A stretch of 64,000 nucleotides of DNA from Polytrichum commune (lineage: Eukaryota; Streptophyta; Polytrichopsida; Polytrichales; Polytrichaceae), in the NCBI GenBank assembly GCA_950295325.1, contig OX485804.1:15378001-15442000 (forward strand), given 5' to 3'. The stretch's first letter is position 1. Each line of letters opens with the position of its first letter. This document shows, in pieces, positions 1-35,200 of the stretch. The notes under the pieces are model-generated. The model was not told the origin of the DNA, searched no databases, and saw only the letters and a list, made by a program, of their open reading frames with translations. The position numbers and the translations under genes are program-made.

Positions 1-790
1 CCTCTGTCGGCGTTATTGGAGTGCTTCTCGAATCTCCGAGGTTTACTTGCGCCATTCCTCTCCCGCGGCCACGCCCTCGCCTTGATGTTTGTTGTGTTCC
101 GCCCGCCTTGTGTGAGCCCAAAATGGTGCCCACATGTGGTGATTAAGTCTTCGAAACCAATTTTAGTGTGACTTTGATGTGCTATGATTATTCACAAAAC
201 ATAAAAAGAGTGAAGTGTGGTATGGATTTAAGTTTAGGCATTAGAATGTGTTGTGTAGTAATTTCAAGGTTTAACTTCAATAAGAGGATGCCTTGATTAG
301 GTGAGTGGGGGGTAAGGTGAAGCAAGGTGAGCTCCGCGAGTTAAATGCCCACTTTTGGATCCACCTTGGTAGTTTGGGAAGAAGGAAGCTTGGTGGATGG
401 GGATTAGTCCCTACTTTGGAGGAGAGGGTTAAAGGATTGTGATTGGAGGTGCCAATCCTCTCACCCTATCCTCACCTCTTTCCCCCTCTCTCCCTCTCTC
501 CCTCTTTGCTACTTAAGGTGTTTTTTCTCTCATTTCTCTCTCTCTTCATCAAGCGCTCTCAAGGGAGCAAGCTCTTAAAAGCTTGAGCTACGCGTGTAGG
601 ACATTAGTTTTTAGTGAATTTAATTAGTTAAGTTCTCTCTCTCAATTCCTCTCAAGTGGAGTGAGCTCTTAGAGCTTGAGACAACATGTGGGGATTAGGT
701 AGTTATTTAGTGGAATTAGTGGGTTAGATTAATTCATTAGTAAAGGATCGAAAACAAAGACTTAGGGAAATGCTCGATTAGCGGCTAGGG
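1..790. repeat. Repeat-rich non-coding DNA, possible LTR fragment
   Basis: No gene is seen. A CT-rich stretch (about 466-545) leads into an imperfect tandem duplication of roughly 95-100 bp. The first copy is about 535-630 and the second about 633-728; both carry the CTCTCAAG...GAGC(T)CTTA.AGCTTGAG core followed by TTAGT-rich sequence. The order of TATA-like element (CTACTTAAGG), pyrimidine tract and repeats is reminiscent of the U3/R part of a plant LTR, but I cannot define TG...CA ends, a primer site or an internal coding region. The first 130 bases are GC-richer and unassigned. Confidence 0.35.
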
Positions 791-1050
791 GAGACTGTAT
801 CAAGAGGCAGCTGGTTAGCTGTGGTTGCGACTGCATTGGAGGCAGCTGGTTAGCTGTGGTTGTGATTGCATTGGAGGCAGCTGGTTAGCTGTGGCCGGGA
901 CTGTATCAGGAGGCAGCTGGTTAGCTGTGGTTGTGAGTGCATTGGAGGCAGCTGGTTAGCTGTGGCCGGGACTGTATCAAGAGGCAACTGGTTAACTGCG
1001 GCTGCGACTGCATCGGAGGCAGCTGGTTAGCTGTGGTTGTGACTGATTAG
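791..1050. repeat. 35-bp minisatellite, about 7 units
   Basis: Seven consecutive units of 35-36 bp share the core GGCAGCTGGTTAGCTGTGG. Each core is followed by a variable TTGTGACT/CCGGGACT segment and then GCATTGGA or GTATCAAGA. Two variant types alternate (GCATTGGA-linked and GTATCA-linked), which suggests a higher-order dimer. Positions 1051-1527 downstream show no convincing gene. Confidence 0.85.
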
Positions 1051-1527
1051 TTTATATTATTACATTAGTTTATAGACTATATTAGACTATATTAGTTTAT
1101 AGATAAGTAGTTGGCCACATTAGGTTAGGTGGAGGCACGTGTGGGTTTCATAAGTAATTGCACTTAGGATTGATTATGGGAAATAGCGTTTTTTAACGCT
1201 TGTATCCTCTCTATTAAATAAATCAAGTGCACAAGTAATGGAGAAGGTGGAGGACTTCCGCGAGGGGAAGACAAAGGAGGTTGGGTCAAAGTATGCAAGG
1301 GGAAAATCATTGAGGGCATGTGCGGCTAAAGCCGCGGGTTGGACTCTTGAGAAAGCCAACTCTAGCACAAGCCAAGAGGCCAACATTAATAAAGTACAAT
1401 GAGTGAGACAATGCATGTTCATTTAAACATGAAAATCACCTTGCATATGGTTCCATGTTGTGATAGATAAATGTGATTCTCAAAGTCATCACCCGGACTA
1501 GGACGCTTAAGGGTGGTGGATTTGGTC

Positions 1528-2311
1528 TCACACCTTGCTTCGCTGAAATCTTGAAGCAGGGGTCACAACATCCACACTTAGGGTTTCTGCGCATGGGTCT
1601 CCTCCTTCAGCTCTTTCGCGGCCTCCCAACAAATTTGATTTTAGATCTTCCTTTGCCGCTTTCCTCTTGGACGCCTTCATTTTTTCTCTTGCTTGAATCG
1701 TTGGTTGTCCCGACATCGGTTCTCGCTCTTCTAACGCCTTCTCAATTTGTTGTGCTACCTCCTTGTTGTCTTCTTCGTAGATATTTCCACTATCTCCACT
1801 CCCCCCTTCTTCCTATATTTAAGATAAAACAATGTTTATAACAATGATGACAAACCATAATATCTAAAAGAAAAGTTGTTTCACAGTTGAATATGTTCTA
1901 CCATTTTTATTATGTGCTCAAACAACTGAATATATGGAGAACCCGAAGAATACGTACGACACTTGTAGAGTTTGTCTCTTCGCGTGAGTCCTCTTGGATG
2001 CTGTCGTTTCCCAACTCCTCCACTTCTGCCATTGGTTGCTTTTTACTTCCGTCCGCCTCTTCTACAATCGGTGATAAATGAAAAGGCGGAATCCCACAGT
2101 CTAGCCTCCACGAAGGTTTCCGCAGGTCCTTTATGCTTTGGCTCAAATCCTCGGGCGTCCCACGGCCCTCGATTGGCGCTTTCCTTACCTGTGACTTTTG
2201 TGTCCTCACTGTCTTTCTCTTCTTATCAGTGTAATGTGTAGACGATCGCCTCCTCTTCTTTTTCTTAGATGGTTCCGTTGTCGGAGGTTGTGAATTGCCT
2301 ATTTCCTTCAT
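1528..2311 (-). CDS. Divergent two-exon nuclear-type protein, possible transposon helper
   Basis: Family not recognised. Exon 1 is 2311-1958 and exon 2 is 1812-1528, with a 145-bp intron (1957-1813) that has a strong GTACGT donor and an AAATATAG acceptor. The join is phase 0 and gives 212 aa. Visible features are basic clusters KKKKRRR (16-22) and KKRK (30-33) that look like a bipartite nuclear localisation signal, an acidic middle (about 84-150), and a second Lys/Arg-rich stretch (about 159-175). There is no enzyme motif. The gene is divergent from the transposase, with ATGs 320 bp apart and a TATATA about 110 bp upstream (2421-2426). Exon 2 ends with AAG followed by GTGTGAG just before the stop, so a further exon is possible. 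Reality as a gene is supported by the good splice sites and protein-like composition; the helper role is inference from position. Confidence 0.6.
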
Positions 2312-2630
2312 GTGTTCAACCCTCCCGCAATTCAGACCTATTCGCTCTATTTCCTTTCCACAACCTCACCACATCAAACTCACACATTGGAAAGAAAGTG
2401 AGCAATCGCATTCTTCTCAGTATATAATTGCAATACCTCCCGATGGGAGGCGCGCTTTACTATCTGACAACCATCTTTGTAATTAGGGGTATATTTTTTT
2501 AGGATGCCTGACAATTTTGTCTCCTTCCTGATATTCATGCGTATTTGTTTATAACTTCATCATCATCACCATTCTCCTTCTCTATGCATCTTTGCATCTT
2601 TGTTCCTTCACGTTTGCTTTCTCTGCCTTC
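2312..2630. promoter_or_regulatory. Bidirectional promoter between transposase and divergent gene
   Basis: This 319-bp spacer separates two divergent ATGs. It holds a TATATA at 2421-2426 that is well placed for the minus-strand gene (ATG 2311). A TATATTTTTTT at 2490-2500 is placed for the plus-strand transposase (ATG 2631). Both would give 5' leaders of roughly 80-110 nt. No other site is identified with confidence. Confidence 0.45.
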
Positions 2631-5600
2631 ATGGCTTCCACCTCAATTCTTCCTCCCGTCTCTGAGATGGCCGAACTTCGTTCACATGGCATCGGGGTCC
2701 CTATTATATTCCCCATTGGTGCACAAGGTATTGTTGTTGTCTCGGAGCTTCATCTTAGCATTAGGTTCTCTTTGAAAGCTAGTACAATATGGGTAGAGCG
2801 TGAGATCTACCATCCTGATACTGGATTGCTCGTTCATACCTTCCATGAGACCTCCAAGGTAACTGACAATGGCAATGTAGTGTGGGAGCTTGGCGCGGGA
2901 AAGTATAGAGTTTGTGGCTGGCCAGATTCTCAGATGGGAGTGTCAACAGAAATCCTTCCTCCTCTTCGATCATCCACTGTTGCCTTTAGCACACCCCCGG
3001 TAATAAGCGTCAAGACCGAGCCTGGTGTAGACAACGTTATAGACTTGTCTGATTCTTCGAGTGAAGATGTACCAATGCATAAGGCTGCTGTCCATGATTC
3101 CCCTCATTTGTTTCCCTTTGCATCCTACGTAACGCCTTCTCCATCTAGCTCTGTCCCTTCAACTACTTCGGTCCCTACATCTAAACCTCCTCAAACTATT
3201 GTTCAATGTCTTCGTCGTCTTGGCTCTATGCCCGGTAGTAAGAACGTCCTCAAGAAAATAGATTACGATAAAATCAAAATCCAAGAAGTTAATCACCTTC
3301 CCCCTCGTTTCGATGGCACCCAGTTATTTGTCCTCCCTGCAGCAGAAGTCTCTTCATCTCAAACCAGGGTCAAGTCGTTGGACGGCATGGACAAGCAATA
3401 TGATGGCCATGTTTGGACTAAAACTCAAACCACCAACATTACAAACGACGTTGGCCTTGCATTTCGTTCCTCTACCTGTGTTGGCCATCTCCAATGCCAA
3501 AACCCGAGTTGTGATTACCTTCAACGCGCCCATCGTACCTCTAAGGTCAATGACACAGAATTTGAAGGTTTCACTAAAGATCCTTTCCTTCTCTCTGGCA
3601 TTGTGCCATCCGGATCTACTCTTGTCTGTAGGATTTGTAAAGAGCCTCCCAAATGCATTGCACTATGCGAGGCCAAAATCTTCTACGTCCATGGGAAGGA
3701 GTCATCCCAAAGAGCCTGCATTCATCTCGGTTCTCATCAACATCCAGTGAAGGTTGGAGACTGCAGAGACAGTCGGAAGCGTATCAATGCACTTCTTGAG
3801 GAGCACGTTGAACGTACGCCTCAAGCCACCCACAGCAAGATCGTCCTTGAAGCTAGCAAGGACATTGTTGGTGAGTTTCTCCTTTCTGGCGATAATGACA
3901 CACACCGTCTCTTCTCTTTAAAAGAGCTTGAACCTGTTTTTGAGAGCTGTAGAGAGTTGAATTCCCCAAACCTTCGCTCTAAGGTTACCTCTTTCAAATA
4001 TTTGCGGAGGTTTGGTGTTATGGATGGCATCGCGAAGCTCCGAGGCGTTAGCAATTGGGCCTACGTCCAACGGAACCAATTCCCAGGACAAGGTGACGAT
4101 ACAGACAAGGTGTTCGTCTTCAAGATGTCGGAGGTTGGTCCTGGAAGTGGAGTGGATTTGGTTCGTCGGATGCAACCGGGTGGGGACCTGGAGAACGCGT
4201 GGATGATGTCCGATCACGTGAAGCAGGTCAAAGGGTGGACCACCATGGCTGCTCATGTGTACGATGGGACTTATCAACAGGTCATGACCATTTCATGTTG
4301 TGATTTCCAATCGGAGGATAAGGATGCCCAAGTTCTCTTCTGGCAGAACCTCAACCACGTCATGGCCCGACACGGTATCCCACATCCAAACTTTATAGGC
4401 TTCATGGCGGACAGTGCCCAAGCCAATTGGAACGTTGTTCGCATTGTGTATGGTTCAGGGGATCCCAAAGTTCCAATGGAGGGTCGTGAGCGCACTTGTT
4501 TTTTCCATTGGAAACAATCGCTCGAAAAACATACGAAATCGTATATAAAACATGAGTTACAAGACCAACATAGACATCTTTGCCTTCAATATCGAAATGC
4601 GTCATCTATGGAAGAGGCTGAGACTAGGTACCTAGCTATCAAGGCTTGGTGGGCGTCATCGAATTGTACAAGTGAGGACGGTCTCAAGCATCTTCAGCTC
4701 TGGCTTGCTTTTTGGCACTTCCGCTACCTTCAATGGGGTGGTTTCATGGAACTGGTACATCTCCTTTATAATTCATTATTGGTTTTTCTTGGATTCGATT
4801 TCCTCTCTCTGTACATTTATATTAATACTTGATTTCTCCAATCAGGAAAAGGTTTTAACCCAAGACCAATTGGCCAAGATGCCGTCGTGCAATCTTGCGG
4901 AGTCCGTCCACAACAAGTGGCTTCAAGCCTCCGGCAACAAGGGTGGAGATCTATACGTGGCTACGGTTGACGACTACATTCGCGCCTTCTTACAAGTTGT
5001 TGCATACTACCAGTTCCTTAAAGGTGGAATTGGCGGAGATGGTCCAAGCAAAGAAGAACTAAAGCTCAGGGGTGCTCAACGTCGAGCTCAGCGTACTGGC
5101 GACCCCACAGTGTTGCAGAAGGTCTTGCTTGACATGTCCGGTGGGGAAGAATTTTGCACTCGCGATCCACACCTTGAGGGCGCCGAGGTGTTTGGATCGC
5201 CGAAGCGAAGACCAGACACTCCAATTGGTGATGATGGCGAGACCCACCGCCCCGATACCGTGAACTTCTCTCGCCCTCCCCCCGGTAAGCGTGTCACTCG
5301 ATCTCAACCAGAAACACTACCCACTATCATTGAGGAGTCTTCCCCCTCTGTACAAGAGGTTCAAGTGCCTTCACCTGCAGGACTTGGTTTCCAACGTGTC
5401 ACTGCCGTGCAAGAAACCAAAGTAGATGTCTCTCTTTGGCATATTGCCCGCATACCCTATACGTCTGGGAAGTCTTGTTGGGCTAATCATGCGGGCACGA
5501 AGAAGAAGTGCACCGCAAGAATCGTCACTAATAATAAGAGCGTTCCTGCGCCGACCTACACCGGTATGTGGCATCATTACAAACTCCAATCTATGAAGCG

Positions 5601-6303
5601 CACGGACTTTGTATTTTGCCCAGACGACATTGAGCGTTGCATGAAGGGCCCTCGTCGGAAATGGGTCATGCAGTTCTCTGCTGATGACCAGAAGCCTCTT
5701 ATTCCCCCAATCTGGCCCGTGAAGATTGGTACCAACCTCACCCGCTCGGAGATCTTCGCCCTTGAGAACGCAGGTTTTCAACTCCCACCAAAGGAGCGCA
5801 TCACACCGACTCAACTCTTCACCAACTCTGCTCCCCCGCTAGATATGTCTGGAATCCGTGTTCCAGAAAACCCCGACATGATTCCTCCGACAAGATTGTC
5901 CAAGCTTGTTCGGCGATCCAGCAGCGCACCTTCGGCAAAGCAGAGGCAGATGGTGGCCTCTGCTGAAGCTGTGCATGGTACCGTTCTGAAGTTAACTATG
6001 ATCCCTCAACCGGGATTTGGTTGCATTATCACACTGCAGTCCAAATCAGAACCCCAACCACCGATCTACCAAGTGACAGTCAGTTCTCTTCCAGAGTGCA
6101 ACTGCGCATACTTCTTGGATATGATTTCCAAGTTCAGCCGCAAACGAAATTCTTATCTGAATTGTAAGCATTTGTATTACATTTTCATCAAGGTTTCTAA
6201 TTTGGATGCGGAAGTGAATTTGTTCATTCACGCCCCGACATTTAGCTTCAACGAAGTCAAACTCATCATCGAAGGGGGTCTTTTGACAAAGTCTACTTCT
6301 TAG
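2631..6303 (+). CDS. MULE-type DDE transposase with SWIM zinc finger
   Basis: Predicted catalyst of cut-and-paste DNA transposition, or a domesticated regulator derived from one. Exons are 2631-4754 and 4846-6303, with a 91-bp GT-AG intron (4755-4845) in phase 0; the product is about 1193 aa. The start is the ATG in context TTCATGG. In order: a SUMO-type site V127-K-T-E130 and a SUMO-interacting motif V136-I-D-L139 followed by Ser/Asp/Glu; a Cys/His-rich FLYWCH/GCM-like region (CxxxxC ... CxxC ... HLGSHQH); then the DDE core. The core has D545 (VYDGTY), D594 (FMADSAQ), a C623xxH626 motif (CFFHW) and E727 (LAESVH). A linker with KR-rich patches follows, then a C-terminal SWIM finger C1126-x-C1128...C1148-x-H1150. 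All expected catalytic residues are present and the frame is open, so it may be functional. AATAAA lies at 6388-6393. It sits between a divergent and a convergent gene. Terminal inverted repeats were not found. Confidence 0.88.
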
Positions 6304-6387
6304 GATTTATCTCAGCCTAGCAGTACTTTGGGCTATGATATATGTATCCATTTCTGGACCTCTTGTGAAGCAATAATTGATTGATAT

Positions 6388-6420
6388 AATAAAGGTATAA
6401 TCTCAATGATTAATTTTATT
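6388..6420. terminator. Convergent poly(A) signals
   Basis: The stops of the transposase (+, 6303) and the small charged protein (-, 6465) are 161 bp apart. A plus-strand AATAAA (6388-6393) lies 85 nt after the first stop. A minus-strand AATAAA (plus-strand TTTATT at 6415-6420) lies 45 nt after the second. The transcripts would overlap tail to tail. Confidence 0.6.
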
Positions 6421-6464
6421 TGCTTCAAAATTTTGTATTACAATGCTTCCTATGTCTATCAACT

Positions 6465-6932
6465 CTATTTTCGTTTTGCATACTTCTTAGATGATTGCGA
6501 GGGAGGTGGACCTGGTCGAAGCAAATCCATATAAGAAATTGTCTTATCTCTCTTTCGATCCTTCAGCGGAAGATGATGCGGCGTCATTCCTCTTATCCGT
6601 TCGCGAAATGAAAGAGACTTCGAAGATTCTCTTTCCACCTTCACCTCCTCTTCCGTTTCGTTCGATTTGTCTTCATCCAAATCAGCATCCTTCTCCGGCA
6701 CATGTTCCTGCATTTTTTCTTTTTTCTCATATTTTTTTTGCTCCTCCCGCACCCTCCACCTCCATGCTTGTGTAGACTGCGAAAATGGAGTCAGCTCGTA
6801 GTCATCACTACTTCGATTTCCAGCAGCAAACTCAAATTCCGGCGATGAATTAACCGGAATATGAGGATCTGCTAGACTTCTAATTTCCTTATCCCATCCT
6901 AATCCAGCAAATATGTCTCTCTCATCTCCCAT
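6465..6932 (-). CDS. Small charged nuclear-type protein convergent with transposase
   Basis: Family not recognised; single exon of 155 aa from the ATG at 6932. The N-terminus (MGDERDIFAGLGWDKE) and aromatic/Ser segment (about 40-62, including AWRWRVREEQ) are followed by a highly charged region (63-105) likely to be coiled or disordered. This contains a SUMO-type site V97-K-V-E100. A basic C-terminus ends KKYAKRK, a plausible nuclear signal. An ATTATAAAT lies about 45 bp upstream (6974-6980) and a poly(A) signal 45 nt downstream, so it looks like a complete small gene. Its tail-to-tail position relative to the transposase is that of mudrB relative to mudrA in maize MuDR, though I see no sequence resemblance to mudrB. 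Further upstream exons cannot be excluded. Confidence 0.6.
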   Translation of the reverse strand: MGDERDIFAGLGWDKEIRSLADPHIPVNSSPEFEFAAGNRSSDDYELTPFSQSTQAWRWRVREEQKKYEKKEKMQEHVPEKDADLDEDKSNETEEEVKVERESSKSLSFRERIRGMTPHHLPLKDRKRDKTISYMDLLRPGPPPSQSSKKYAKRK

Positions 6933-6984
6933 TGTGTGCAACTGTATATACAATGATGTTGGGTATGAATCCAATTTATAATCT

Positions 6985-8300
6985 ATTCGGCCACAAACGA
7001 TAATTGCTAAAGTCTAAGCTATAGAATAGACTCATATATAAGACAAAGAGAAAAGTGATGAATAAAAACCAAGCAAGTTTATTATTTTGATTCCTTTGTA
7101 TTTTGATTGACTCATTATTCAATTATACCAATCTCAAAAAATCCATTTTCATTGATTTTTTCTTGTAGTCATCCTTGGTTTTAATAATTCAACCACCTCA
7201 CGGTTTCCAAACTTAATGAGACCATTTCAAATTCAGGGTTTTTATTTTATTTTATGACCTATATATCCCACGGAAATAGGTCCAATTTTTTACTATTATT
7301 GTCAGATTCTGGTATATTCTTGGTATATTCTTGGCTATTTTGAAATATCCTAATTTTAGTCTGACAAGTTTACTATTTTTATTTCCTCTACGCTCACATA
7401 CAAGTGTCGTCCTGGTGGTGCATTCCAATGAACTTGGAGGTTTCAAACCATTCTTGATGGCGAGGGCATTTGGGTCCACTATCATTCTAATTGGCCACTT
7501 GCATGTAGAAGCCAACTTCATATTGAAAGTGTGAGAATCAAACTATCATCACTCCAACAAATTTTGAGAAGATCCAACAATTGCAAAGTTGAAGTAGCTT
7601 GTGAGATTATTGGTTTCTTTATGAAAGTTGAATGACAAGTTGAATGCAACCTTGGGATTTAAACATATACACATATATACATATACCAACTGGAAAACAT
7701 ACATGTGAGAACATGAATATCCAAATTTGGTGTGCATGTATCCAAAGTTAATTGATTAGATGATGAGTATTTTTTTTTTGGAATTCAAAGGCCATTGTTG
7801 GAGCTTGTTTGCTTTGGGACGTTGCCCATACTACTACAAGTAGTTGATTCTTATAATGGGCAACACCCACATGCAAGAAAACTTGCCTCCTTGCTCAAGT
7901 CTTAGTGACCTTCTACATGGATCAAATTCACCTCAGAGCATCGTTCTCCTGAATATTGAATAAAAAATTAATAGGATTTGCATCTATCTCTTCTTGAAGT
8001 ATATAAGAATCACCATGCCAAGTAGGAAGCTTGGATGATGGTGTGAAGTGGCAGTCTAGAACTCTCCCCCAACAAGAGATGACCCCTCAAACCACTAAGT
8101 GCACTAAAGGGTTATCATTAAAATATTGAATGATAAGGCTTTGATATAATTGGATAGTTGTAGTACTATATTTATAGTTTTATTTTCAAACCCATATTAA
8201 TTCATGTTCATGTAAAAACATATTCCTAGTTTTGAACATATGATGTTGTGGGCTTGAAAACAACGTAGGGTCAAGAAAAATTCCATTGTACAAACTACTA
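6985..8300. other. Gene-free AT-rich stretch
   Basis: Searched for the right end of the transposase block and for genes. The short open frames are not protein-like and no inverted repeat matching the 1.0-1.5 kb side was found. Nothing else identified. Confidence 0.5.
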
Positions 8301-8302
8301 TC

Positions 8303-9033
8303 ACTACAAGGAAAACATGAGAAAATGACAAGGGCCATATGACCGGATATGACTAGCGGTTTTAAAAAAGTCATATTGAACCAAAGTGATGACTACAAGT
8401 GACTTTAGTCATTATATGACTAAGGGGCGGTTTACACTATGGACCAAGAGCCATGACCACGAAATTCTAAAATCTGTGATTGGAGAGTAAAATGCTCTTG
8501 GTCCCATTTGGCTTTACACTACCTTGAAAAAAGGAGAATGACCACTAACTTTGAGGTCCCCAAAAACTACTAAAATCTGCCATTTGGATATTGTGCCATG
8601 GTCCAACGGGTTTTCCGTTGAGGCGAGGCAAAATGCTCGACTCAACGGAAATCAAGGGAGCCGTGAGGTTGAAAATCAGCCATTGGCCCTTTTTTTTTTT
8701 AATATTTTTTTTTCCTGATTTTTTTTGGGCATGTATTAAAAAAAATCAACACCTTCGCTTTTTGGTGTGTGGTCATTCCTCTTGGTCCACATTCGGTTTA
8801 CACCTAGTGAAGGGCCCATGAACCATGAAAACTAATATTTTAGTAACTCGGACCATGGAAGTCGTCCCATGAAGTCGTCCCACGCAAAATAGGCCTCTTA
8901 CGTGGGACGACTTCATGGTCCATAGTGTAAACCGCCCCTAAGTTTTTAGTCAGATCGGACAAGATTTGGATGGGAACCATGTAGAGAACATGTTGGGAAC
9001 ATGTTTTCTCAATATTCTATATTTTCATTGTAG
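8303..9033. mobile_element. CACTA-like non-autonomous element, split by a MITE
   Basis: The left end reads CACTACAAGGAAAAC, the canonical start of plant EnSpm/CACTA termini. The right end (about 9020-9033) is the inverse of GACTACAATGAAAA, one base off CACTA at the tip. No coding sequence is present. Without the nested MITE (8424-8938) the element is about 215 bp. I could not match a 3-bp target duplication, so the exact right border is uncertain. Confidence 0.45.
8424..8938. mobile_element. PIF/Harbinger-type MITE, family 1, copy a
   Basis: 515 bp bounded by terminal inverted repeats starting GGGGCGGTTTACACTATGG, flanked by a TAA duplication (8421-8423 and 8939-8941). GGG-rich ends with a 3-bp TWA duplication are typical of PIF/Harbinger (Tourist-like) elements. 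Near the right end is a perfect 17-bp hairpin (CATGAAGTCGTCCCACG and its inverse, about 8869-8917). No open frame of note. A longer relative lies at 47694-48809. Confidence 0.85.
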
Positions 9034-19815: not shown

Positions 19816-19881
19816 CTTTGGATGTCGCAGGACCCGAAAGACTAGAAATCGGCTCCTGAGCACTTGTAAGAAGCAGGAGGC

Positions 19882-22836
19882 ATGGAGAGTTCTCTGTACT
19901 ACGTTCGAGTCGGCCATGGAGATGGCAACTTTTTGGAAAACTCCCGGTGCTCTGCCCCACTGCAAAGTGTGTGTGCAACCGGGATCGTCCGTGACAACGT
20001 TGCGCAGTTCACATTAGTTCAGACATTTGTGAACCCACACAAGGATGTGGGTATCGAAGCCGTGTACCAATTCCCCTTGTACGAGGGAGTGGCGGTGCGC
20101 GGGTTTAAGGCCGAGGTGGACGGTCGGAAGATGGTGGGCAGGGTGGAGGAGAAGGTCGCCGCGCGGAAGGAATTCGAGGAGGCCGTGGAGAACGGCAAGA
20201 TAGCGAGTTTGTTGGAGCAGGAGAGGCCCGACATCTTCCAGACATCCGTTGGAAATATTCCTCCCGGAAAGCAAGTGGTGATTACGTTAACCCTAATCTC
20301 CGAAATCAAGAACGACGCCGACGAAAGCCAAATCCGCTTTGTCTTGCCCACCGCCGTTGCCCCTCGTTATGGTCGCAGCAATGCGTGGGCATCTGGGGAG
20401 ACCATCTCCACGGAAAAGTCCCATCTCTCCATCGACCTTTCATTCGCCATGTCGCAACCCATCACTTCGCTCCAATCCCCCTCGCACACAATTGAAGTGC
20501 ACCTTGGCACGAAAAAATCCCCGACTTCTTCTATCGATTCTCACACGACCGGCTCTACCAAGTCAACTTTCGACCCGAAATGCGCTCGAGTGAGCTTGAC
20601 CTCGGATGCGATGTTGGAGCACGACCTCGTGATTGTGGTGACAGCCCCGGGAATTGAGGAGCCCAGGGCGTTGGTCGAACGACATCCGACACATCAAACG
20701 CACGCGGTGGCGCTCACGTTTTCCCCCCGTTTTGCGCTCAACCCGATCCGCTCGTCCGAGCTCATCTTCCTTATCGACCGGTCGGGGTCGATGGGCGGCT
20801 CGCAGATGGAGCAGGCGCGACACGCGTTGCAGCTGTTCTTGAACTCGATTCCCTCGGAAAGCCATTACGTGAACGTGATCGGGTTCGGGTCCACGCACGA
20901 GTCGTTGTTCCCGAAGTCGGTCGAGTACGACGAAAGCTCGCTCAGAGCGGCCTCGTCTTACACGCGCGCCTTACAAGCCGACATGGGCGGCACGGAGATC
21001 GCGAGCGCCTTCCGTGACGTCTTTGAACGGCGACGTCGCGATGTGCCCACCCAAATCTTTCTGCTCACAGACGGACAGGTTTGGGACGTCGAGGACATCG
21101 CGCAGTCGATTCGAGAAGCGGTGCGCGAGGGCGAAAAGAGCAACGCGTTTGTGCGGATTTTCAGCTTAGGGGTCGGGAACGACGTATCGCATAACCTGAT
21201 CGAGGCCGTCGCGAGGGCCGGCCATGGCTATGCGCAAGTGGTGGTGGACGGCGAGCGGATGGAGAAGAAGGTCATCCAGTTGTTAAAAGCCGCGTTGACC
21301 CCGCCCGTCAATAACTTGTGGGCGCAATGGGTGGCGGACGACGGTAATCCGAGTATGTCGACAGACTCAAAACTTGTCGCGGAAGTGGGAAAGGACAAGG
21401 AATTAGACGACTTCGAAATGGTGGAAGTAGCAGATTCCTCAACAACATCTGCAACCTCGACCAATGCTACTACCAATGTAGTGACTGCTCCGATCGACTT
21501 ATTTTCCAGGGCTGTCGAGGAGCCAACTCCGCCTCTACAACCCGATTGCACCGAAATCGTGGCGGAAATCTTACAGTCGCCGTTCCGAATTCCGCCCTTG
21601 TACCGCGGGGCTCGCTTCACCGTGTGTGCCATCCTCTCCCCATCCACCCCCGTTCCGAAAGAAATCATAGTGCGAGGCACCACACTCGACGGCCCCGTCG
21701 AGTTGCGCGTCAAGGTCGGGGAATTAGAAAGGCAACAGGATGATGATACGACGATGTTGCACACCTTGACAGCACGGAAGTTGTTGCGGGATCTGGAGGA
21801 AGGCACATCGCATGTGGTTGCATTGCTAAGGAAGCCAACGACGACAACACGGGAGCAGAGTACTACTGATCAGGATGCACAAATGTTGAAGAGGTTGGGC
21901 ATTCGATTGGTTCATGAAACCCTAAACCATCCCCCATCCACCCTCGAACTCACGAAGAAGGAAATGATCAAGATTGGACTGAAATATGGGTTGGCCAGCA
22001 AATACACCAGCTGGATTGCCATCGACGAGAGTAATAAGTTCATCAACGCTAATCCACAGGCAGGCGCGATCCAAGTTAAAGAAGTACCGATTATGGCGGT
22101 TCGTCATGGATTCCTGCCAATGAGAAATGCGAGTCGATCTCCACTTTATTCTCAACCATCTCACCCAACTGGAGTTTTGTATAGTGATCCTCCTGCTGCT
22201 GCTCCTGGTGCTTGTTTCGGTGGTCCAGGGGTGATCTGTGAACAACAACAACTTTCCTTGACGCCGATGACGTGCTCGTTCCTTGACGCCGGTGCTCCAA
22301 ATTCTGTATCCAATTTCTCTCTCCAATCGTCTTCCACATTGCCTGACTTTTCATCTTTCTGTTCAGCCCCACCTCCCAGTTTTGGCCGCGCTCCGGCGCC
22401 ATCCAACGAAGACTTCTCAGATTTGATGAGTGATGATCTTGACCCACACGTCCGGCTTCACGCCCTTGTGCAACACCAATCGTTCGACGGCTCCTTCCTG
22501 CTGGGGCAGGAGTTAGGGTCCTTCTTCCATGCCTCGGTGCAAGAGATGCAATCAGCATTGGATGAGGTTATGACATCATCGTGTGATCCAGCTGATTCAA
22601 GCCTCCACCAACTTTCTGCAGAGGAATGGAGAGTGGTGTGGGCCACGTGTTTGGCGGTTGTGTACATGGAGCAGCAATTAGGTGAGTTGCAAGAGGAGTG
22701 GGAGTTGGTGGTGGAGAAAGCCCAGAGGAAGCTGGAGCTTATGGTGCCAAGCAAGGAGGTGATGGCACAGGTGAAGGAAGCAGCCAGCAAGTTTTGCAAG
22801 CTTCATCACCTGCCCCAAGGAGATCAGAATCCATGA
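19882..22836 (+). CDS. VIT and vWA domain protein (VWA5A-like)
   Basis: A 984-aa uninterrupted frame. It combines an N-terminal VIT domain (about 30-145) with a von Willebrand factor A domain (about 290-470), the layout of VWA5A/inter-alpha-trypsin-inhibitor heavy-chain-like proteins. The metal-binding MIDAS site is intact: D299-x-S301-x-S303, T371 (GGTEI) and D397 (LTDGQ). A Ser/Thr-rich linker (about 500-530), a second conserved block (about 545-690), a Pro/Ser-rich region (about 740-850) and a C-terminal module (about 870-970, with the LVQHQSFDGSF motif typical of VWA5A/PARP4 tails) follow. There is no signal peptide, so it is probably cytoplasmic. Its physiological role in plants is not established. 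Coding DNA is clearly GC-richer than its surroundings. AATAAA is at 23051. An upstream non-coding exon is possible. Confidence 0.88.
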   Translation: MESSLYYVRVGHGDGNFLENSRCSAPLQSVCATGIVRDNVAQFTLVQTFVNPHKDVGIEAVYQFPLYEGVAVRGFKAEVDGRKMVGRVEEKVAARKEFEEAVENGKIASLLEQERPDIFQTSVGNIPPGKQVVITLTLISEIKNDADESQIRFVLPTAVAPRYGRSNAWASGETISTEKSHLSIDLSFAMSQPITSLQSPSHTIEVHLGTKKSPTSSIDSHTTGSTKSTFDPKCARVSLTSDAMLEHDLVIVVTAPGIEEPRALVERHPTHQTHAVALTFSPRFALNPIRSSELIFLIDRSGSMGGSQMEQARHALQLFLNSIPSESHYVNVIGFGSTHESLFPKSVEYDESSLRAASSYTRALQADMGGTEIASAFRDVFERRRRDVPTQIFLLTDGQVWDVEDIAQSIREAVREGEKSNAFVRIFSLGVGNDVSHNLIEAVARAGHGYAQVVVDGERMEKKVIQLLKAALTPPVNNLWAQWVADDGNPSMSTDSKLVAEVGKDKELDDFEMVEVADSSTTSATSTNATTNVVTAPIDLFSRAVEEPTPPLQPDCTEIVAEILQSPFRIPPLYRGARFTVCAILSPSTPVPKEIIVRGTTLDGPVELRVKVGELERQQDDDTTMLHTLTARKLLRDLEEGTSHVVALLRKPTTTTREQSTTDQDAQMLKRLGIRLVHETLNHPPSTLELTKKEMIKIGLKYGLASKYTSWIAIDESNKFINANPQAGAIQVKEVPIMAVRHGFLPMRNASRSPLYSQPSHPTGVLYSDPPAAAPGACFGGPGVICEQQQLSLTPMTCSFLDAGAPNSVSNFSLQSSSTLPDFSSFCSAPPPSFGRAPAPSNEDFSDLMSDDLDPHVRLHALVQHQSFDGSFLLGQELGSFFHASVQEMQSALDEVMTSSCDPADSSLHQLSAEEWRVVWATCLAVVYMEQQLGELQEEWELVVEKAQRKLELMVPSKEVMAQVKEAASKFCKLHHLPQGDQNP

Positions 22837-31037: not shown

Positions 31038-32201
31038 CTACAATGGACCGTCCAGTCGCGCCTCCAAAGGAAAGCCTTGCAATCCTTTTCGCTCAAAACT
31101 CCCTATGTAAGGGCATCGCGGCAACCATCGCCAAATTTTGGTCAGTGAATTAAACTCCAAGATCTCATCAGCACTCTCTCGGATGGTGATTAGTATCAAG
31201 TCTCCGTGCCCAATGCAAGTGAAGGCAGAGTCGCAAGAGACTCTAATGAAGTCATCGTACAAACTCTGGGGCATTCTTTCCAACTCCACCCAGACATTAT
31301 TCGGCGTCTGCAATCCCCAGATGCGAATACTTTTGGGGACGTTGAGCTTATTCTTCTCTACAGCAGCTACGAGAAGTAGGCGATCTCTGCAGACAACAAG
31401 GTTCGGTGTCCTTAAGAACCGCCGCATTGGCGCTTGAATCTTACTCCACGCACCTTCGTCGATTTGGTATGCTAGCAAACTGAAAGGACTAAAGGTCATA
31501 CTGTAAAGGAAACCATGGAGGAACACGGATTTTCCTGATTCAAGGTTACAGAGGCGAGGTAAAGCGCCCGTCATTTGCCAACCTCTGAATCTCGAATCAT
31601 AAACTTCTGTTGTGAGGTTCTTCACAGCAAACGGCGAGATCATGTCATCTCCAGCAACCATCACTTTGTACTCGTTAGTTTGATTGTTGACAACGAAGCC
31701 CACCGTTGGCACAAAGCGTTCCTTGAGCGTTGGAGGCAGCCCTACCCAGGCCTTTGTGAACGGGTTGCAAATGTACAAAGTTTTGTATCCAGCAACCTCC
31801 GATATGCAACAGAAAACGCCACCGGCAGTTGCCACCACCTGGTGTTTAGGAGGGAGAAAAGAAAGAGGAAGCTTTATCCACTCTCTGTCCAAAGGATTGT
31901 AAAGAAATCCTTCTGTAGAGATTCCTCCAACTCTGAACATCAAGAACCACAACCGAGGAATTTGGAGTTGCGAGCATATATGCAGGAATCTGTGCGTGTA
32001 GATGAGGTAATTCCACCGTTTGCATACACACCGAAGCCGAAAGAAACTCGCAAGTGGTAGAAATGCCAATATCCTTTCCAGTATTTGCTCTGGGAGCTGA
32101 CTCCAAAGCCTCGGATTTAACTGCTCTTCTCGCTCATCATAGTACTGAAAATCCTGAAAGTCTAACTCTGAGGTTTGCAGAAGCGCTAAAGCATCCTCCA
32201 T
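31038..32201 (-). CDS. F-box/kelch-type protein (LCR/At5g15710-like)
   Basis: 387 aa, single exon, ATG at 32201. The N-terminal F-box (about 32-72: LWSQLPEQILERILAFLPL..FFRLRCVCKRWN) would bind SKP1 in an SCF ubiquitin ligase. The rest is an F-box-associated/kelch-like beta-propeller (for example FLYNPLDREWIKLPL, YICNPFTKAWVGLPP, TEVYDSRFRGWQ, SIRIWGLQ..NNVWVELERMP, ILEFNSLTKIWRWLP) expected to recruit substrates. The pattern matches the LEAF CURLING RESPONSIVENESS (FBX6), At5g15710 and UFO group. At 31268-31287 (minus) the coding sequence for LERMP resembles the miR394 target of LCR with four mismatches. A TATATA lies at about 32335-32340, some 135 bp upstream. Which ortholog group it belongs to needs a tree. 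Confidence 0.85.
   Translation of the reverse strand: MEDALALLQTSELDFQDFQYYDEREEQLNPRLWSQLPEQILERILAFLPLASFFRLRCVCKRWNYLIYTHRFLHICSQLQIPRLWFLMFRVGGISTEGFLYNPLDREWIKLPLSFLPPKHQVVATAGGVFCCISEVAGYKTLYICNPFTKAWVGLPPTLKERFVPTVGFVVNNQTNEYKVMVAGDDMISPFAVKNLTTEVYDSRFRGWQMTGALPRLCNLESGKSVFLHGFLYSMTFSPFSLLAYQIDEGAWSKIQAPMRRFLRTPNLVVCRDRLLLVAAVEKNKLNVPKSIRIWGLQTPNNVWVELERMPQSLYDDFIRVSCDSAFTCIGHGDLILITIRESADEILEFNSLTKIWRWLPRCPYIGSFERKGLQGFPLEARLDGPL
31268..31287 (-). promoter_or_regulatory. miR394-like site in F-box coding sequence (decayed or ancestral)
   Basis: On the coding strand 16 of 20 positions match the complement of conserved miR394. The AGAATGCC core is retained. Mismatches face miRNA positions 1, 2, 11 and 16; the one at 11 lies beside the slicing site, so cleavage is doubtful. 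The match may simply reflect conserved LERMP codons. Confidence 0.3.
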
Positions 32202-35200
32202 GGATATGATAGCAAGCCGAACGTCGATGGCGATCTGATAACACTAATATTGATATTTACAGTATTTCTTAATCTTGATAAACTGATGAACTGATAACCT
32301 ACGAAGCTTTCCAAACATGAAAGGGATGCTGCAATATATATTGGAGCTTTATTTCTGGTGTTTCAGGAAGCTGATGTCTTTCTGAGCACATGATCTGTGA
32401 TCGATGTTTGACAGGATCGGATAAGGATAGCCATACATGTACATGTCTTCCCAGGTCTGTTGACCTTGACTCTTCATTGCTCGATCGATCTCCGGGCGTG
32501 TCTAATCTCTTCCACTTCTGTTTCTCGCCATATTCTCTTACCTTCTATTCTTCAACTCTCCTGAGGTCTCTTTAGCCGTTCCTGCTGTGTACCGGAGCTC
32601 CGAGCAAGAGTGGAGTTCTCTCGGTTCCTCTAGACTCCGGTGAAGAACTTGTGTCGATCGGTTTACTGTGGTTAATTTCTGACAAAATTTCTGACTGTAA
32701 TCTCTCTGTCCGTCGACTGCAGTAGACGGCTGCTTCTGCTTGTACTTCAACCTCTCGAATTGACAGAAACTCAGTCTGTCGGTCTCCACAAGTAAACAAA
32801 ACCCTCGGTTCATCCTTTCTTCTCCAGACGCTCAAATTTGGAACTGCAATCGCAAGGTTCCAGAAGGAAAATGAAATCAGTCGTGTGCCTTTTCAACTAG
32901 ATGTCTCGAAATGCATTTGTCAACCGCTAAGAGAATGATGATGACACTACTGGAGCACTTCCTATTTCCATTACTTTAGTTATTTTTACTGACAAGTCTG
33001 TCAAATGTATTGGAATCGTCTCATGTAAGGTCATCATCAACCACGATCTGCAAGGAAAAGCTAGAATATCTTGCCAGAAACATCGCTAGCTCATGCAACA
33101 CTTAGGTAAAAGTTTAGGTCGCTCAAGCATAAGCCACCTCCGTCACCCGTTGCGTTTCCGGTGCAATATCTGTGCATCCTATATATATACTGAACTCTAG
33201 AAGAGCGTGATCACCGTTTCTTTGTGGTTCAGCAAACAGAGAGTTATAATATGGATAGACTGAATTTTCCTCTGGAGGACTTTGTAAGACTTCTAGCCGC
33301 CTGTTTTCGATGTAATCTTGTTTGTGCAGGGAGATCGATTGCGACAATCTACATACTGCGATTACTGTAATTTTCTCACGGGGCTTTATTTATTATCGAA
33401 GTAATTAACCACCAGCCTAAGCTTGCAAAATTCCGTATTAAGCAGCTGCTGCAGCTCCAATCACAAAGCTTATGTGGACGAAGTGGTGCATCCAATTAAT
33501 CATTCTCAAGAACATTACTTGCTCCATATAAGCTATGCACTTTGGAATATCACTAATGCAGCTCACCAAGCTCGTCCTCAGGACTGTCTTATAACACCCT
33601 ACAAGGCACGCAAACTTCGATAATGATATCACAGTGATGCAGTAATTCTCTATGTCGAGACTCACCTCAGCCTAAGCCAAAAGCCAGCAGATCTGTTAGT
33701 GGATAAATAGTGACTCGATCGAAGCTCTGTTAACCTTTGTACTACGGTAGCCGGGTGAACGTATTCTAAGGATGTGCTCATGCAAAAGTCTATTGTTAAT
33801 TATTAGATGTATCGATCTCGGATCTGAGAAACAATGAAAGCCCCTTGAAAACTCTTTCCTACATGAAAACTCTATTTGAAGGTTGTAGGTAAGATGAAAA
33901 TGGCGTCGACAATAGTATAATATTGTCGGTTTCCCTTAACACTAGTGTACTCTACCAAGGCAAGAAGCAAGATGACTCACGAGCTAGCTTTAATTTTCTA
34001 GGTACAATATAAGTTATCACAATCTGACTTGCAACGCGGAGCCTTGCAAAGAGAGATCTGATAACGCTTGAGCACTATCGAGACCTTCTTGGTTCACAAA
34101 CAGGCTTCAATTTCACCACCAGGCCGTGCGTGCAGGTATCTCGATCCGACAGCTTTGGACCGAAGAATCTGCGCATGGACCATAAGATTGACAAAGCTAA
34201 AATAAGTCTTCTGATGACTTACTTACACAGAAACAACAAATGCGATAGTGATCCGCTAGCTAGGGCCTTTGCAGCTGGAGTCGAACCTCACTTCTCTTCG
34301 CCAACGTCACCTGTCTTTCTTGAATGATCAAGGGAACGGGAAGGGAACCAGTAGCGCTGCCGTAAACGAGCTCAAATAGCCCCCGAATCCTTACCAGCTC
34401 ACAATGATCATCGCACACCACAGCTGTGCATCCGTAACCACGTTGCCGAGGGAGGCAGTAAAAAGTGAACTACTACCTGCCCTCACATACCTGAAATGGA
34501 AGCCGCTGTACCTCCAAGTTCCTACTCCACACCAGGATGCCACGAAATTAGCTTTCACCAAGTGATTCCGCGTGCCTGTGAGCAGAGGGTTTTGAGAGAT
34601 TTGAAAGAGGAGAAAGAGAGAAAAGAAAGTGAGAGTCTGAGGAAGACAGAGACAGAGAGAGAGATGCTTTTGGCCTATCTAATGAAATGTCACCAAGTAG
34701 GCACTCAATTTTTACTTTATCCTGTATGTGAGGTCTGTAATTCCATCACTCCAGCGTGCTTGATTAGTTCCCAGCTGCATTTACTCGTGTCACTCGAGCG
34801 CCATCGAGTTCACCGTCGTGGACGAGGCTGCCAATTAGGTGAGCCCTAGTAAACTCGAGAAGAGCTTTTACATGCGCTAACGTAAGTGGCCGTGATTTAA
34901 TGGACACCTTTTAGCTCTGCGCCCACATAATATGAAGCACTTGATAAGTGCGTAATGAGATGATTAGCCAATCTAAGTTGAGGATGCAGTCGTGTTAGGA
35001 GGTCATAAGAATGTCTTATTCTTGCCTATCAAAATGGTCGTATAGGTCCTTGAGTCTCAATAATTGTGTCGACTATTGAAGTGTTGTCGAATTCAAATTG
35101 TTTCATGTCATAATGTGTCTTTTTGGTGTCTGTTCTTAGATCCATATCTAATCACACAGCACTCAAATGCATACTAGGTGATCAATTGAATGTAAGAAGT

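Follow-up and report, generated by a model that had tools for sequence, protein, structure and literature searches.

A multi-gene DNA transposon family with Mutator-like anatomy in the moss Polytrichum commune, carrying a gene with a methylase-like half and variable tandem repeat arrays

The layout of the maize transposon MuDR comprises the genes mudrA and mudrB, and the VANDAL elements of Arabidopsis have, to our knowledge, no terminal inverted repeats (TIRs). Mutator-like elements (MULEs) with several genes are known, and MULE target duplications measure 8-11 bp, according to the available part of PMC6446971. The VANC protein is described in the available part of PMC5735166 as binding short motifs in the tandem repeats of the element that encodes it and as removing methylation, with VANC and repeats co-evolving. 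Further, the Ectocarpus element Sola1-1_Ec32 is a 21.5-kb Sola transposon with an accessory gene combining ParB and DNA-methylase parts, and green and red algal cases are mentioned in the available part of PMC12477816. Multi-gene MULEs, ParB-methylase accessory genes and site-specific anti-silencing by VANC are already known, each described separately. Here, we analyse a 64,000-nucleotide stretch of the P. commune genome (contig OX485804.1, positions 15,378,001 to 15,442,000 of the forward strand; hereafter the window), for which a preliminary description had placed a SWIM-finger MULE transposase (T) between a divergent gene (A) and a convergent gene (B). The frames lie where it had put them, with gaps of 319 bp between A and T and 161 bp, tail to tail, between T and B, and the block belongs to a family of multi-gene DNA transposons of ~16.7-18.3 kb with Mutator-like anatomy that also contain a fourth gene (C) and tandem repeat arrays.

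The proposal of a multi-component transposon holds, as the unit recurs at many loci. In the searched genome (408 Mb, seven large contigs), gene A has 138 matches, and gene B as well as the ParB-like exon and the motif-IV exon of gene C have at least 150 matches each. For the placement of the genes we scored 63 matches to T exon 1 (86-100% identity) from 2389 first-look candidates, with A and B counted when encoded on the other strand, at most 15 kb from T (133 of the 138 gene A rows used, short fragments dropped). Gene A lies upstream and in opposite orientation at 48/63 T copies, compared to a random mean of 0.135 of 63, gene B stands downstream at 47 and both are present at 35, while for the 34 copies with at least 97% identity the respective numbers are 32, 28 and 26. 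At 54/63 copies, one or both of the tested exons of gene C lie no more than 40 kb from T, on the side and strand expected (149 of the 150 listed ParB-exon rows used), and the controls gave 2/63 for the wrong side, 1/63 for the same strand and a random mean of 0.5 with a maximum of 4/63. All four genes occur together at 33/63 copies. Transposase homologues that never have the partner genes nearby had been named as the outcome that would speak against such a unit; what was found is the opposite, with recurring partners.

Leftward comparison of copies places the left ends ~10 kb before the window start and rules out a 5.4-kb unit of three genes, which is what had been described: gene C, the arrays and the left end are part of the unit, which extends 10.4 kb further left. 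The order along the element is left TIR, C (leftward), arrays, A (leftward), T (rightward), B (leftward) and right TIR. Perfect 10-bp target duplications, within the range of MULEs, flank 4/4 elements read end to end, namely c3 (16,664 bp, CCCACCCGAG), c6 (18,315 bp, GGCCAAAACC), c1 (17,274 bp, GCAGTTTCTG) and the window element w (17,828 bp, TGGTGGTGCA). Based on copy alignment and element ends, w spans G000:C2:15367585-15385412, and window positions 1..7412 (+ strand) are its right-hand part, the left end lying 10,416 bp before the window start. The outer 22 bp of its right TIR (GGACGACACTTGTATGTGAGCG) were placed at 7391..7412 (- strand) by end comparison and are followed by the right copy of the duplication at 7413..7422 (+), the left copy ending at G000:C2:15367584.

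The terminal sequences, left GGGAAACTCAAGTATGTGAGCG... and right GGACGACACTTGTATGTGAGCG... (reverse complement), are identical from the twelfth base onward for a stretch; the outer 10 bp differ between the two ends, and the right-end 22-mer therefore did not locate the left end. The TIRs are imperfect, with 56/71 identical columns in c3, 54/71 in c6, 48/78 in c1 and 41/74 in w, and are weaker in the latter two, where repeat units have been lost from the right end. Genome-wide, the outer 22 bp occur 74 times exactly and 146 times with at most one mismatch. The suggested search for terminal repeats and duplications has thus located both, although the duplications are 10 bp long instead of the 9 bp anticipated. 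The 97-99% identity between copies, together with the perfect target duplications, points to recent mobility and speaks against the domesticated descendant that had been offered as a second option; a domesticated host gene is ruled out by the 63 scored near-identical copies together with the perfect duplications in 4/4 elements. At locus v6, the most diverged one read (T 58%), gene A is present and the locus adjoins gene C (L028), and no gene B was found between T and the right-end-like sequence; gene B may be dispensable, judging from this single and possibly defective locus.

The transposase T is 1193 aa long and open, and consists of exon 1 (2631..4754, ATG at 2631) and exon 2 (4846..6303) on the + strand, separated by a 91-bp GT-AG intron. 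Of the T sequences compared (the window copy and three diverged relatives), 4/4 contain a SWIM-type CxCx(n)CxH motif, which reads CNC...CKH at window 6097..6171 (+), and conserved D, CxxH and AE positions in A3, assigned by eye, are candidates for a DDE triad with C..H between the second D and E. The MULE family PF10551 gave no match to T, and a genome profile search with it, listing 142 matches, had none at the window T; profile-profile comparison of T gave no MULE support, Pfam gave no SWIM match, and searches of T, A and B against Pfam, NCBIfam and PDB returned nothing meaningful, the weak matches (FERM_M, ANAPC15, ZipA and others) being judged chance. The earlier assignment to the MULE type therefore stands in part: anatomy and motifs point to a putative MULE-type transposase, while Pfam, PDB and profile-profile searches lent it no significant support. 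The element resembles MuDR in its transposase with a convergent small second gene, its TIRs and its duplications in the 8-11-bp range (PMC6446971, available part), with gene B resembling mudrB in position only. It differs from MuDR in the additional divergent gene A, gene C and arrays, and in that T starts inside the element.

The conservation of all four genes was assessed as dN/dS by the Nei-Gojobori method, without significance test and for finite-dS comparisons only, dS being saturated in the remaining ones. The values are 0.10-0.36 for T (9/12 comparisons finite), 0.10-0.29 for gene C (17/31), 0.26-0.56 for gene A (6/11) and 0.33-0.64 for gene B (5 comparisons; one target without match). 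Every finite value is, thus, below 1, with A and B as the weakest cases.

Gene C runs leftward through 11 exons in the left 5 kb of the element and is open over 1087 aa in c6, with one internal stop in c3, three in c1 and a broken frame in the window copy. Its exons are found in order in diverged elements (10/11 in s8, u1 and u6, 9/11 in u2) at ~38-88% identity. Searched directly against libraries, the C-terminal part gives weak matches, always to DNA methylases (E 0.001-0.13), including Pfam N6_N4_Mtase (E=0.13), a DpnA-type enzyme in PDB (0.006, with profile 0.0012), NCBIfam CcrM (0.002) and a PHROGs methyltransferase (0.0019). Among phage records there were 11 matches, all across the S-adenosylmethionine (SAM) motif; 11/11 bear a methylase or methyltransferase annotation, and the best E is 3e-3. 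A Pfam search with the whole 1087-aa protein gave 0 families, and relatives of gene C were unconfirmed among 44 and 26 pattern matches in viral contigs. The firm link to the methylases is transitive: gene C matches L043, another protein of the same genome, with E=2e-18 over 225 aa (profile 2.6e-23, compared to 2.2e-4 for the best of 200 shuffles), and L043 in turn matches PF01555 (N6_N4_Mtase) over the cut-off (E=7.9e-8, residues 1-216 of 221). By homology, then, the C-terminal half of gene C is derived from an N6/N4 DNA methylase.

In active N6/N4 DNA methylases, motif IV has the form (D/N/S)(P/I)P(Y/F/W). L043 has DIPY at this position, and the last residue of the motif in gene C is E (16 copies), D (1) or G (1). 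Since the motif is without an aromatic residue in 18/18 copies, the predicted catalytic activity of gene C has probably been lost or changed. The L043 locus itself (G000:C1:9661501-9663400) represents a second, related DNA-methylase family, and PF01555 has ~80 matches on the chromosomes at E up to 1, mostly weak and short. The N-terminal half of gene C carries a GNHR-type motif and resembles ParB by motif and by eye only, and Pfam ParB_N matches in the genome are confined to three small bacterial-looking contigs. The small contigs C10, C12 and C23, with ParB_N or N6_N4_Mtase matches and long open frames, look like bacterial contamination.

Compared by description, Sola1-1_Ec32 is likewise a giant DNA transposon whose accessory gene and transposase lie on opposite strands, and the 1104-aa product of the accessory gene, with ParB-like and N4C/N6A methylase parts, is close in length to the 1087 aa of gene C (PMC12477816, available part). 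In contrast, Sola1-1_Ec32 belongs to the Sola superfamily and resides in a brown alga, whereas the moss element combines a SWIM transposase and 10-bp duplications in a land plant, and the part of PMC12477816 at hand makes no mention for Sola1-1_Ec32 of an altered motif IV or of co-varying palindromic arrays such as those of the moss element.

The tandem arrays between C and A span ~5-7 kb and have several unit lengths, from ~70 to 487 bp. Within them, the 20-bp palindrome AGGCCTCGGATCCGAGGCCT is present in 31 exact copies in c3, 35 in c6, 26 in c1 and 29 in w, which are elements of the same group, and in 0 copies in s8 and s9, which belong to other groups. The palindrome occurs 2137 times in the genome and its reversed control 0 times; of the first 50 listed positions, 46 are in the arrays of three elements (C1:2249067, 12944085, 13998656) and 4 elsewhere. 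The repeated site of s9 is ACCCTCTCGGAACCGAGAGGGT, the inner 18 bp of which occur 1630 times in the genome, 100 listed places falling in two loci with parts of the same transposon family. All site types (AGGCCTCGGATCCGAGGCCT and those of s9 and s8) have CTCGGA in common. Conservation of core and flanks, in bits per site, is 1.85 and 0.72 in c3, 1.83 and 1.13 in s8, and 1.83 and 1.50 in s9, with ranges of 1.83-1.85 (core) and 0.72-0.83 (flanks) across c3, c6 and w. Away from the listed T copies, G000:C1:2490249-2497090 has three exact AGGCCTCGGATCCGAGGCCT palindromes around a weak PF01555 match (C1:2492264) and is perhaps another element with this site.

The elements are mosaics, in that identity to group I varies from part to part. 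In eight copies with T at 90-92% identity, gene A is only 31-32% identical, the ParB exon 63-66% (found in 5) and the methylase exon 65-68% (found in 6). At T identities of 86-87% there are eleven copies, with the ParB exon at 64-66% (7) and the methylase exon at 85-90% (7); the genome search did not pick up gene A in these copies, although s9 does have an A in place, with 29% identity. Two copies with T at 88% have A at 69-77%, ParB at 81% and methylase at 89-90%, and one of them carries two exact AGGCCTCGGATCCGAGGCCT palindromes. The element C1:16467309 combines T at 90% and the methylase exon at 95% with the ParB exon at 66% and the second site type, and between groups with T 87-91% identical the arrays share no blastn similarity. 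Site type, therefore, does not track T, B or the methylase half; what it can track is the ParB-like half or gene A, without a simple rule.

These arrays recall the VANDAL/VANC system of Arabidopsis, likened here by description: a multi-gene MULE-type element with tandem repeats of short motifs in non-coding parts (PMC5735166, PMC10398659), repeats that vary among related elements, and an accessory protein with conserved and variable parts (PMC5735166; all as given in the available parts). The moss element differs in having TIRs, measured end to end, in a candidate binder that is methylase-derived, in sites that are up to 20-22-bp palindromes within an array of ~5 kb, and in its length of 17-18 kb. 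A land-plant element combining a ParB-methylase gene, an altered motif IV and co-varying palindromic arrays was not found in the literature searched, the coverage of which was partial.

Taken together, we consider the chances roughly balanced that this is a Mutator-like element and carries a cassette for site-specific anti-silencing, in which the gene C protein, perhaps with A, acts on its own array; VANDAL/VANC is the nearest model of such action, achieved there with different components. With regard to movement, family knowledge suggests that T and the TIRs would provide cut-and-paste transposition. The gene C protein, via its ParB-like half and perhaps with A, would bind the array of its own element, gather on the element and hold off host silencing, and only elements with a matching array would be helped; the unit with its ends and genes, its recurrence and conservation, the methylase ancestry, the altered motif and the co-varying arrays are observed, and the binding, the identity of the binder and the anti-silencing are what we infer. 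ParB proteins bind palindromes and spread. A more specific version, in which a ParB-derived protein fused to a methylase without catalytic residue would load at palindromic arrays of its own type, spread and block silencing, and in which specificity would evolve as otherwise near-identical elements swap a cassette made up of the ParB half, the array and gene A, is tentative and, in our view, rather doubtful. If true, it would be an anti-silencing system that distinguishes self from non-self, has bacterial ancestry and is independent of VANC. The bacterial ParB-family protein VirB, an anti-silencer against H-NS silencing (PMC10653881, available part), is alike by analogy of mechanism only.

In either form, one transposon, present in many copies in a land plant and 97-99% alike between its best copies, unites methylase ancestry with a ParB-like motif, arrays of palindromes and a mosaic exchange of parts. 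If the arrays are the targets of the protein, elements with the same transposase and different sites would form a clean series provided by nature, on which the evolution of target specificity in selfish DNA, and the role of a methylase fold after a change in its catalytic motif, could be tested.

Several observations weigh against an anti-silencing cassette centred on gene C. The ParB half is without support in PDB, Pfam, NCBIfam and PHROGs profile searches, and the repeated site of s8, GCCTAGCCTCTCGGAATCTAAGTG, is not palindromic. Further, the choice of sites by similarity inflates the measured core conservation, and the random 20-mer control is unclean, its top words being variants of the site. 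The u1 array is of the GGTTCAGATT type with few degenerate sites, though its ParB identity band is that of s9 (64-65% to c6), and as u1 shares this band and carries another array, the ParB identity band does not simply determine site type. The GGTTCAGATT array of u1 lies partly in intron 5 of gene C (2.4 kb; L026 2277-4646), the same intron being 81 bp in c3.

Gene A, finally, also co-varies with the site type and could itself be the binder. An arrangement in which A is the site-binding specificity factor and gene C has another role would agree with A being small, basic and adjacent to the array, and with its divergence between groups, which is as strong as that of the ParB half (28-40% identity in s8, s9, v2, v4 and v6). 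It is nonetheless gene C that has the ParB-typical motif, the longer conserved frame and the lowest dN/dS (0.10-0.29), and we regard gene A as the specificity factor as unlikely. Still less probable is gene C as an active N6-adenine or N4-cytosine methylase marking the DNA of its own element: the fold is there by homology, and methyl marking has been suggested for ParB-methylase transposon proteins in the Ectocarpus element (PMC12477816, available part), but motif IV is non-aromatic in every one of the 18 copies while the related L043 keeps DIPY. Tandem arrays expand easily and the flanks in s9 are almost as conserved as the core, as would be expected if the arrays were a satellite without function that grew from DNA prone to form hairpins; however, c3, c6 and w keep one palindrome over units of ~96 to 487 bp with far less conserved flanks, and the differing site types share CTCGGA, which makes such growth quite improbable. 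Least credible of all are arrays serving as subterminal binding sites of T, a role that subterminal repeats have for transposases of other superfamilies, as T is 87-91% identical between groups without blastn-similar arrays, whereas the outer 22-bp TIR is kept.

In the window copy, the genes are not all intact. T is open, in agreement with its earlier description as apparently intact, but gene A is split by an insert and gene C is frame-broken. The first exon frame of gene A (1910..2311, - strand) runs for 133 aa from the ATG at 2311, with the splice site preceding the frame end, and the 319-bp head-to-head region between A and T (2312..2630) may serve as a shared promoter. The last exon of gene A is split by a nested, solo-LTR-like insert of 1422 bp (111..1532; LTR, long terminal repeat), with the portion right of the insert at 1533..1812 (-), where the frame is continuous in L001 and L002, and the remaining gene A sequence at window 1-110 and beyond the left window edge. 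Position 1528, where the block had been taken to start, falls just inside the insert, which has TGTGAG...CTCACA ends (termini TG..CA) and the 5-bp repeat CCTTG on both flanks (106-110 and 1533-1537). It is absent from 7/7 compared copies and specific to the window copy, because these copies (L001-L007) align only with window 1-110 and 1533-7395. The insert also contains internal 71-79-nt repeats. Gene B (155 aa, 6465..6932, -) is supported by genome matches and dN/dS.

Beyond the element, window 8419-8943 holds a 525-bp sequence resembling a miniature inverted-repeat transposable element, with 31-bp inverted ends that are 94% complementary. Two long open frames further right are, by eye, VIT/vWA-like (19870-22836, 988 aa) and F-box-like (31038-32243, 401 aa). 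The genome contains genes for chlorophyll a/b-binding (LHC) proteins; one of 217 aa reaches its highest scores among single-domain PDB chains with the moss structures 8htu_U (479.6 bits) and 7xqp_a (477.6), above 8c29_G (447.0), and the 620-aa chain 9vfj_2 gives 546.4 bits over two stretches. This points to a land plant, probably a moss, and seven chromosomes would fit Polytrichaceae. Elsewhere in the genome, G000:C5:1751760-1846160 is a tandem cluster with fourteen LHC gene matches of equal score within 95 kb.

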